64,000 nt of DNA from Rhodocyclaceae bacterium. GTDB lineage: Bacteria; Pseudomonadota; Gammaproteobacteria; Burkholderiales; Rhodocyclaceae. Positions 28,687 to 54,110 of this stretch are shown in pieces. Under the pieces are notes generated by a model. The model worked only from the letters and a program-made list of their open reading frames with translations. It made no database searches and had not been told where the DNA came from. The stretch is taken from assembly GCA_030682175.1 (NCBI GenBank), contig JAUXOM010000099.1, forward strand, positions 1-64,000, given 5' to 3'. The number at the start of each line of letters is the position of its first letter. Within the stretch, counting starts at the first letter, position 1. A program made the position numbers and the translations under genes.

Positions 28687-28841
28687 GGCCCGCCCTCCCC
28701 CGACCCCTCCCTCGCGGGAGGGGTGACTGTTGACTCGCTCTGCTCGTTTGTTACGGGGAGCCCCCGTTCGTGCTTGGGAGCGGTTTGCGGCTGGCGCCGC
28801 GTGCCGCCTTGCCTTGGGGCGGCCCGGCGGCAAGGCTACTG
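28687..28841 (+). repeat. GC-rich intergenic repeat, family B copy 1 (~155 bp)
   Basis: GCCCGCCCTCCCCC(GA/AG)CCCCTCCCTCGCGGGAGGGGTGACTGTTGACTCGCT...GCCTTGGGGCGGCCCGGCGGCAAGGCTACTG; near-colinear with 50013-50167. Confidence 0.9.
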
Positions 28842-40505: not shown

Positions 40506-41165
40506 TCAACCACCTAATACAGCATGGCGCGGGCAGGTGACGAGATGGTCATTCACCATGCCCGTCGCCTGCATGTGCGAATAGATCACCGTCGGACCGA
40601 CGAAGCGAAAGCCGCGCTGCTTGAGTTCCCTGGCCATGGCGACGGCAAGGGGCGTATGGACGGGCACTTCATCGAGTCGCCGCCAGCGGTTGACGATCGA
40701 CTGGCGATCGACAAATTGCCAGAACAGCGCATCGAGGCTTGAGCCAGCGTCGTAAAGCGCCAGCGTGGCGCGGGCATTGCTGATCGCGGCGGATATTTTC
40801 AGGCGGTTTCTGACGATGCCGGCATCGCCAAGCAGGCGCGCCAGATCCGCATCACCATAGCGGGCAATCTTCTGTACGTCGAAACCATCGAAGGCGCGCC
40901 GGTAGTTCTCGCGTTTCTTCAGGATGGTGATCCACGACAGCCCGGCTTGGGCGCCTTCGAGGACGAGGAACTCGAACAGCGTGCGTTCCTCATGGCAGGG
41001 CACCCCCCACTCGGCGTCGTGATAGGCGACATAGAGCGGATCAACGCCGCACCAGGGACAACGCTGCGGATCCGGATACCCTGACGTCCCCGCCAACGCC
41101 GTACCGCCAGCGCCGACTTTTGTAACTGCACCGCTCGACACAGTCACGGCGCCGGGCCGTCCCAA
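40506..41165 (-). CDS. tag: DNA-3-methyladenine glycosylase I (start uncertain; no ATG before conserved domain)
   Basis: RCPWCGVDPLYVAYHDAEWGVPCHEERTLFEFLVLEGAQAGLSWITILKKRENYR. Confidence 0.92.
   Translation of the reverse strand: MGRPGAVTVSSGAVTKVGAGGTALAGTSGYPDPQRCPWCGVDPLYVAYHDAEWGVPCHEERTLFEFLVLEGAQAGLSWITILKKRENYRRAFDGFDVQKIARYGDADLARLLGDAGIVRNRLKISAAISNARATLALYDAGSSLDALFWQFVDRQSIVNRWRRLDEVPVHTPLAVAMARELKQRGFRFVGPTVIYSHMQATGMVNDHLVTCPRHAVLGG
41097..41120 (-). repeat. Family A element near 5' end of tag
   Basis: CGCCGTACCGCCAGCGCCGACTTT; encodes KVGAGGTA. Confidence 0.85.
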
Positions 41166-41285
41166 GCCGTAACGGCACGCGCCCCAGGCGCAAACCGCTC
41201 GGCTATCGCCACGGAGTCGCCCGTAATATTCGAGCGTAGCGAACCACAGTCACCCCCTTCCGAGGAAGGGGGGCGGGGGGATGGC

Positions 41286-49028: not shown

Positions 49029-49396
49029 GCCAGGCAGTCCCGGCAGGCGCCTCCATTTTTCCGGATTCTGTCTGCCAGGCCTGTGGCGCCTGTTGCGCCA
49101 CCTATCGCATCACCCTGCCTCGTGTCGAACTCGACAATGCACCTGAAGGCTGGGTGCCGGCGGCCCTGACCGAACCCTACACAGCCACTACCGCCTGCAT
49201 GCGCGAATGCACCGATATTCCCGGACGCTGCATCGCCCTCCAGGGAACAATTGGTGTGGCAGTCAGTTGTGCCATCTACCCGCAACGCCCCAGTGCCTGC
49301 AGCGAATTCGCCCCCCTTTCCGCCCTTGGCTGCGGTGATGAAGCCTGCGACGAAGCCCGCCGACGCCACGGCCTACCTTCACTGGGCGGGCTATAA
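49019..49396 (+). CDS. YkgJ family cysteine-cluster protein (probable TTG start overlapping nrdJ)
   Basis: [49 protein letters not shown]...[14 protein letters not shown]. Confidence 0.8.
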
Positions 49397-49397
49397 T
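49392..49397 (+). promoter_or_regulatory. Consensus -10 box (TATAAT) ahead of tRNA-Ser locus
   Basis: GGGCGGGCTATAATCGC ~31 nt upstream of the degenerate tRNA copy. Confidence 0.55.
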
Positions 49398-49427: not shown

Positions 49428-49535
49428 GGAGGTGTGGCAGAGCGGTTGAATGCACCGGTCTTGGCGCCAGTTCCGCGCAAGCGGGGCGCGCCAGCGCAGG
49501 GTGACCTTCTGGTCAGCCGGAGCTAAAACCGGCAA
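49428..49535 (+). pseudogene. Truncated tRNA-Ser(UGA) copy with 61-nt insertion in the anticodon loop, 3' half missing
   Basis: GGAGGTGTGGCAGAGCGGTTGAATGCACCGGTCTTG + 61 nt + AAAACCGGCAA; flanks concatenate exactly to the intact tRNA sequence. Confidence 0.85.
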
Positions 49536-49558
49536 TTGAGTTACGGAGTAAGGTCTGT

Positions 49559-49648
49559 GGAGGTGTGGCAGAGCGGTTGAATGCACCGGTCTTGAAAACC
49601 GGCAACGTCGCAAGGCGTTCGTGAGTTCGAATCTCACCACCTCCGCCA
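49559..49648 (+). tRNA. tRNA-Ser (anticodon UGA), CCA encoded
   Basis: GGAGGTGTGGCAGAGCGGTTGAATGCACCGGTCTTGAAAACCGGCAACGTCGCAAGGCGTTCGTGAGTTCGAATCTCACCACCTCCGCCA. Confidence 0.97.
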
Positions 49649-49741: not shown

Positions 49742-50053
49742 ATGAGCCATAAACATCTGCATCTGTTGCGCAGTCTGTTTCAGGAACCCGTCAGCGCCAA
49801 TATCCACTGGCGGGAAATCGAGTCGCTGTTGAATCATCTCGGCGCGACGGTCGAACCGGTGCATGGCGCGCGGTTTCGTGTGCTGCTGAACCACCACGAA
49901 TACTTCCTGCACCATCCGCATCAGGGCAGCGTCTTCAACCGCCAGGACATCAAGCACCTGCGGGAATTCCTCACCCATGCCGGCGTCAGCGTATCGTCCT
50001 ATGAGGCGGAAAGAGCCCGCCCTCCCCCAGCCCCTCCCTCGCGGGAGGGGTGA
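49742..50053 (+). CDS. HicA-like/YcfA-like small protein with repeat-derived C-terminal tail
   Basis: LFQEPVSANIHWREIESLLNHLGATVEPVHGARFRVLLNHHEYFLHHPH; tail ERARPPPAPPSREG encoded by family B repeat. Confidence 0.75.
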   Translation: MSHKHLHLLRSLFQEPVSANIHWREIESLLNHLGATVEPVHGARFRVLLNHHEYFLHHPHQGSVFNRQDIKHLREFLTHAGVSVSSYEAERARPPPAPPSREG

Positions 50054-50167
50054 CTGTTGACTCGCTACGCTCGTTTATCACGGGGAGCCCCGTTCGTGAT
50101 TTGGCGCGGATTGCGGCTTTCGCCGCGTGCCGTCTCGCCTTGGGGCGGCCCGGCGGCGAGGCTACTG
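50013..50167 (+). repeat. Family B repeat copy 2 (~155 bp)
   Basis: Colinear with 28687-28841 with scattered substitutions. Confidence 0.9.
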
Positions 50168-53969: not shown

Positions 53970-54110
53970 CGCCCGCCCCCCTTTGCCCCCCTCGCGGGGG
54001 ATTCTTGTTTGCTCACTGCGTTCGTCTATTACGGGGTGCTCCCGTTGTTGCGGTGGTACGGCTTGCGGCTTCGCCGCGTGCCGTGTTTGCTTGGCAGCCC
54101 TCTCCCTCAA
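53970..54110 (+). repeat. Diverged family B repeat between tgpA-like and mltB
   Basis: GCCCGCCCCCCTTTGCCCCCCTCGCGGGGGATTCTTGTTTGCTCACTGCGTTCGTCTATTACGGGG...GCGGCTTCGCCGCGTGCCGT. Confidence 0.7.

Follow-up and report, generated by a model that had tools for sequence, protein, structure and literature searches.

Why should the first half of a tRNA gene, carrying 61 additional nucleotides in its anticodon loop, stand directly upstream of an intact gene for the same tRNA? The locus lies in the window, by which we mean the whole 64,000-nt stretch of DNA analysed here (positions 1 to 64,000 of contig JAUXOM010000099.1, Rhodocyclaceae bacterium, assembly GCA_030682175.1), and a first-pass annotation, made from this stretch alone, had read it as the relic of a tRNA with an intron-like insertion. 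We arrive at a different answer: the 61-nt insert is very probably one copy of a non-autonomous, structured and dispersed mobile repeat of Burkholderiales.

A partial tRNA-Ser(UGA) ahead of an intact one

The intact tRNA-Ser(UGA) occupies 49559..49648 on the forward strand (ARAGORN; Rfam RF00005, 61 bits) and is the sole match of its kind that we found in the window's genome. Its first 36 nt are repeated at 49428..49463 (forward strand), as the first-pass annotation had stated and as direct reading of the sequence agrees; this 5' half is identical to 49559-49594 and comprises the acceptor 5' strand, the D arm and the anticodon 5' strand (nt 1-35). The inserted 61 nt (49464-49524, forward strand) separate it from AAAACCGGCA (49525..49534, forward strand), which is both the right flank of the target and the 3' strand of the anticodon stem. 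Taking out the 61 nt restores CCGGTCTTGAAAACCGGCA and places the insert between tRNA positions 35 and 36. The presence of a partial tRNA upstream of an intact tRNA-Ser is likewise confirmed by direct reading, and folding recovers both of the stems that had been named earlier (GCGCC...GGCGC and TGACC...GGTCA). From the element to the intact tRNA runs a 24-nt spacer of foreign origin (49535..49558, forward strand), which has a homologue in the related genome G013 (L002) and is absent from another, G006.

A TATAAT-like -10 box lies 5' of the partial copy (49392..49397, forward strand), and relatives with a clean tRNA, G006 for example, carry this box upstream of that tRNA at the same spacing; we regard the box as the ancestral tRNA-Ser(UGA) promoter. 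A crude scan found no further promoter-like site between this box and the intact tRNA, so co-transcription of the intact tRNA with the partial copy and the insert is likely, as had been suspected. The folding energy of the window's insert is unremarkable (z = -0.9) and, for this copy, uninformative; the support beyond chance for this insert is comparative, and comes from its match to a covariance model and from its recurrence in syntenic positions.

Filled and empty sites within the genus

We searched for the locus in 19 genomes of the genus, 18 of them besides the window's own. The same arrangement of partial tRNA, insert and intact tRNA is present in syntenic position in six of these 18 (G001, G004, G010, G013, G015 and G018); in G006, G012, G008 and others of the genus the locus holds just one, clean tRNA. 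An assembly error, which the first-pass annotation had named as one way in which its reading might fail, does not explain a layout that is found in independent genomes, including the near-complete G001 and G018. The clean empty site of G006, with flanks 91-92% identical to those of the locus in the window, defines what is extra at the latter: 131 nt (49464-49594), made up of the 61 nt, AAAACCGGCA, the 24-nt spacer and the second 36-nt 5' half. In G001 the tRNA-Ser(UGA) locus holds four tandem units, the first of which has a different insert. Arrays such as this one, and the dispersed copies described below, rule out a single decayed tRNA; what had been taken for a decayed interrupted tRNA is instead a dispersed repeat, the insertion of which was accompanied by a partial copy of the target tRNA. 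We also noted that the two tRNA-Ser alleles, GGAAGCTTGG.. and GGAGGCGTGG.., trade places as partial and intact copy between G013 and G015 (L002 and L003); the units thus recombine, and recombination switches which tRNA allele is functional.

A conserved branched core that remains paired

The window copy consists of a hairpin, P1/H (GCGC CA GTTCCGC-GCAA-GCGGGGC GCGC by folding; 49464..49490, forward strand), followed by a conserved core (49491..49524, forward strand) that we delimit by covariation and by covariance model R2, which matches the insert at 43.6 bits (E = 4.5e-11). Within the forward-strand core, helix P2 pairs 49493-49495 with 49522-49524 and 49499-49500 with 49517-49518, and P3 pairs 49502-49506 with 49511-49515; the internal loop is GCA/GGA, and P4 is absent. 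The counterpart of P1/H in most other copies is an ACAAC...GTTG hairpin. Across the family the order is P1/H, P2 (GGC/GCC, YAGY/RCYA or GGY/RCC), a symmetric GNA/GNA internal loop, P3 (TAAC..GTTA), an optional P4 and then AMAA, with a three-helix consensus sequence of GCGGCGNAGGCTAAC..GTTAAGC..GGCCGNAGCC|AAAA. We therefore define the unit as one hairpin plus the conserved branched core, ending just 5' of A[A/C]AA.

Fitting to the model gives the covariation alignment of 71 order-wide sequences an advantage; in it, 97% of the cells are paired and two-sided changes occur in 12 of 16 pairs, values that none of 500 shuffles reached. We judged two other observations to be decisive: pairing is 25-37% when the structure is slid along the alignment, and the pair types of P2 and P4 show GC/AU/CG swaps. 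Helix lengths vary among copies, yet the helices stay paired. C(GNA)G triloops, a very stable form in single-stranded DNA, close many of the helices; these loops suit a single-stranded DNA form, though an RNA intermediate may also be compatible with them.

A dispersed family of Burkholderiales

The unit is 60-90 nt long, has no gene of its own and reaches tens of copies per genome. A covariance model of the full unit, built from seven units, found matches in 21 of 250 genomes of the family; these fall in tRNA-Ser(UGA), Ser(GGA), Ser(CGA) and Leu(CAA), and also at non-tRNA sites, for example rpoA-rplQ and rfbB. A separate model of the core alone found matches in 124 of 400 Burkholderiales genomes (58 of 158 genera), with about 35 good copies in the genome of the window, and a search of 274 genomes of the class matched only the window's own (0 of the 273 others). 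Copy numbers are highest in G301 (57), followed by G001 (45) and G513 (43); two genomes of the same genus have none. Thiobacillus denitrificans, Sulfuricella, Sulfurisoma, Desulfobacillus, Gallionella, Methylobacillus, Polaromonas, Paraburkholderia and Azonexus are, with others, among the matches listed by a pattern scan of named genomes. Some units form regular tandem arrays, with periods of 127, 141, 145 and 224 nt. The presence of the repeat in some species and its absence from others suggest, at the level of sequence comparison, that it is mobile.

The strict pattern gave no match in viral contigs, nor did the consensus in plasmid and phage records, which speaks against carriage by phages or plasmids. 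These results also bear on another account of the locus, namely that the insert is the remnant of an attachment site for tyrosine-integrase elements that target the anticodon loop. The target is real, in that the same anticodon loop is split in G002, with another tRNA-Ser(UGA) on one side, and the exchange of partial and intact alleles between G013 and G015 would fit. Nevertheless, we consider this account highly improbable: besides the lack of matches in viral contigs, plasmids and phages, the same core and fold recur at dozens of unrelated sites per genome, and helices that vary in length but stay paired are unlike att sites. As to G002 itself, its tRNA-Ser(UGA) is split at CTTGAAAAC over two contigs (L023, G002:C45:75393-75641; L024, G002:C3 near 11202), one side bears a different, complete tRNA-Ser(UGA), and in that genome this anticodon loop seems to serve a larger integrative element of the ordinary kind.

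Boundary, targets and flanking duplications

We analysed the flanks of 114 copies, some of which share a genome. Immediately 3' of the core stands AAAA in 88 of the 114 and ACAA in a further 16. An intact tRNA lies within 300 nt of the core in 23 of the 114, and the only types in this sample are Ser(UGA, GGA, CGA), Leu(CAA) and Phe(GAA), of which some recur, with no others, in the named genomes; all of these host tRNA types have AAA immediately after the insertion point. Core copies recur at rpoA, nuoD, ftsW, rfbB and xerC/D-like genes. Judged from translated protein ends, these recurrent sites include rpoA, ftsW at its 3' end and nuoD at its 5' end, with a xerC/D-like gene in the window's genome. 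Vertical inheritance or tandem expansion could account for part of the recurrence at any one target.

Beside 55 of the 114 copies there is a direct duplication of 12 nt or more (1.5% in the control), and about half of the copies have no clear direct duplication. Where one is present, the intact gene persists next to the partial one. Another feature of the flanks is a reverse complement, or inverted stem, of at least 10 nt upstream of the core (35 of 114, versus 0.36% in the control). The bases to the left of the core pair with those that follow AMAA at 5.5 of 10 positions, versus 4.0 +/- 0.12 for shuffled partners. In all these flank tests the shuffling runs across genomes that differ in composition. 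At L163, L139, L162, L165, L138 and L152 a long inverted repeat begins right at the stop codon and mirrors the gene's final codons, with species-specific matches; at L139 and L163 the arm matches the species' own version of those codons; these stop-codon repeats look freshly copied.

Copies in frame within proteins

Five copies in the window's genome lie in frame inside protein genes, which encode an MFS protein, a TANGO2/NRDE protein, an alpha/beta-hydrolase, a HrpA-like helicase and CinA; Pfam domains span or flank the insertions. That the reading frame is kept suggests that these copies are translated, not spliced out. This returns us to the intron-like nature that was first proposed for the insert. 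It would then be a small intron that sits in a tRNA anticodon loop and is either self-splicing or removed by an enzyme. The appeal of this reading lies in the position between nt 35 and 36 and in the structure of the insert, which the anticodon stem closes. Against it, the element is also found between genes and in frame inside proteins, Rfam intron models match neither the window nor the six filled loci, and the partial tRNAs are without a complementary 3' half, so that splicing would yield no tRNA. We therefore abandon the intron as extremely improbable. Group I introns do exist in bacterial tRNAs, for example in tRNA-Ile of Azoarcus, and share with the insert a location inside a tRNA gene; unlike them, the insert has only 61 nt, no intron family match and no splicing partner. 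Nor did the insert match any other Rfam family: hits below threshold (sX4, rsmX and others) lie on the tRNA or on flanking sequence, and we attribute them to chance or to kinship with tRNA.

Carrier repeats with and without the element

A second subfamily comprises at least 14 copies, in the window's genome, of a longer carrier repeat that holds the unit. The window itself contains carrier repeats without the element: an empty site at 50010..50135 and a second core-free copy at 28687..28811, both on the reverse strand; the empty site aligns to the two flanks of the filled copy L302 at 98% and 89%. The core-free carriers lack about 86 nt (ACAACAAGCGAC..core..GGCAAAA) at a single point, just before AACAGTC, and the junction shows two or three further base differences. 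This comparison of empty and filled carriers delimits the moving unit without recourse to the tRNA locus; as read from the alignment, the direction may be insertion or loss. The GC-rich carrier (CGGCACGCGGCGCCAGCCGCAATCCGC..CGAGCGTAGCGA..CAACAGTCACCCCTCCC) is itself dispersed, and occurs whole or in part in the window at 28687-28834, 50010-50160, 54013-54083 and 41144-41242.

Candidates for the mobilising enzyme

Copy number is tracked by none of Y1_Tnp (RAYT), the reverse transcriptase RVT_1 (PF00078) and IS110 (PF01548), and all three are missing from G001 despite its 45 copies; this lack of tracking rules them out as obligate partners. Many copies without any Y1_Tnp are found in G001, G018, G046, G348, G513 and G614. 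A place in the REP/RAYT or CGTC-REP family is accordingly most improbable. Small folded repeats dispersed near gene ends, and sometimes inside genes, are indeed what REPs are (PMC3733652), but the Burkholderiales repeat is not a single hairpin of 20-40 nt, carries neither a GTAG nor a CGTC tag, and in G001 reaches its 45 copies without Y1_Tnp.

The integron integrase (TIGR02249) scores above cut-off in 13 of 19 high-copy genomes versus 6 of 18 zero-copy genomes: one lies at G000:C134:1081-2025, 12 are in other high-copy genomes, and that of G001 is decayed. This enrichment is weak, and shared ancestry may explain it. It is nonetheless one of the points in favour of an attC-like cassette site, in which the unit core-AAAA-target-...-core would be a circle inserted by the recombinase; the others are the regular tandem arrays and a feature common to all inserted units, each of which can be drawn as a circle that closes at core|AMAA. 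We find this very doubtful. Five high-copy genomes (G348, G532, G614, G404 and G326) are without an intact integron integrase; the core is absent from the stretch near most of the integrases examined, where we saw no attC role for it; and the attC-looking repeats near the integrase of G301 differ from the core. The R''/R' boxes of attC are RYYYAAC..G|TTRRRY, with the crossover at G|TT. In the repeat, GTTAAGC fits GTTRRRY, but GGCTAAC fails RYYYAAC, and the boundary is |AMAA instead of G|TTRRRY.

Relation to known systems

With integron attC sites and cassette arrays, the repeat shares tandem arrays of units and a functional form that is probably folded; its boundary and sequence are different. 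MITEs, such as Correia elements, are similarly non-autonomous, short, non-coding, multi-copy and located in or near genes. The Burkholderiales repeat, unlike these, is known by an asymmetric conserved fold; its aligned copies, which begin ACAAC.. and end ..GCC, show no terminal inverted repeats. What defines the REP families is a single hairpin tagged with GTAG or CGTC (PMC3733652). The REP/BIME elements with RAYT and the CGTC REPs resemble the repeat in being short, folded, non-coding, abundant and near gene ends; they differ in their tags, in the larger multi-helix core of the repeat, and in that a Y1 transposase does not track it. The Rickettsia palindromic elements are dispersed sequences of about 100-150 bp that lie in frame inside unrelated protein genes (PMC10969869), as the repeat does in its five cases. 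The two are set apart by description: the Burkholderiales repeat has a branched core and an AMAA boundary, inserts into tRNA anticodon loops and is accompanied by duplication of its target, and the matches that we found all lie in Burkholderiales.

Rfam release 15 has no entry for the family, and a search of open-access journal papers by consensus stretches and keywords found no earlier description. The best reading is that the repeat was previously unrecognised, though it may have been described before. It would then represent a large family of structured mobile repeats, spread across the clade, that lands in tRNA anticodon loops and essential genes, leaves one copy intact, changes the transcription units of tRNAs and adds peptides to conserved proteins. 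Its clear boundary, recurrent targets and empty/filled pairs would make the search for the mobilising enzyme directly testable.

A possible route of movement

We propose, tentatively, a series of steps of movement that we think rather unlikely to be right as a whole. The unit would move as a folded single strand, either of DNA or as a copy of an RNA, with the help of an enzyme that acts in trans, and its 3' end would be joined 5' of AMAA. Repair synthesis would then duplicate the adjoining target and often write a reverse-complement arm just 5' of the core; where this synthesis folds back, the arm would be copied up to the base of the folded core. As for expression at the tRNA locus, the old promoter probably drives transcription across the partial copy and the insert into the intact tRNA-Ser(UGA), which RNase P would then free.

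The inverted arms also lend themselves to a bolder version, which we consider improbable: the element would be guide-directed, with the arm pairing to the target strand and steering the insertion of the folded core, and insertion in turn rebuilding the arm and duplicating the target. If that were true, each copy would be addressed to one gene and would home to that gene in other genomes.

A further observation concerns the tRNA-Ser element of G018 (L018/L025), in which the P3 loop holds a further insert of about 150 nt with the ends GGAAACGCT..AGTGTTTCC, a nested second mobile repeat.
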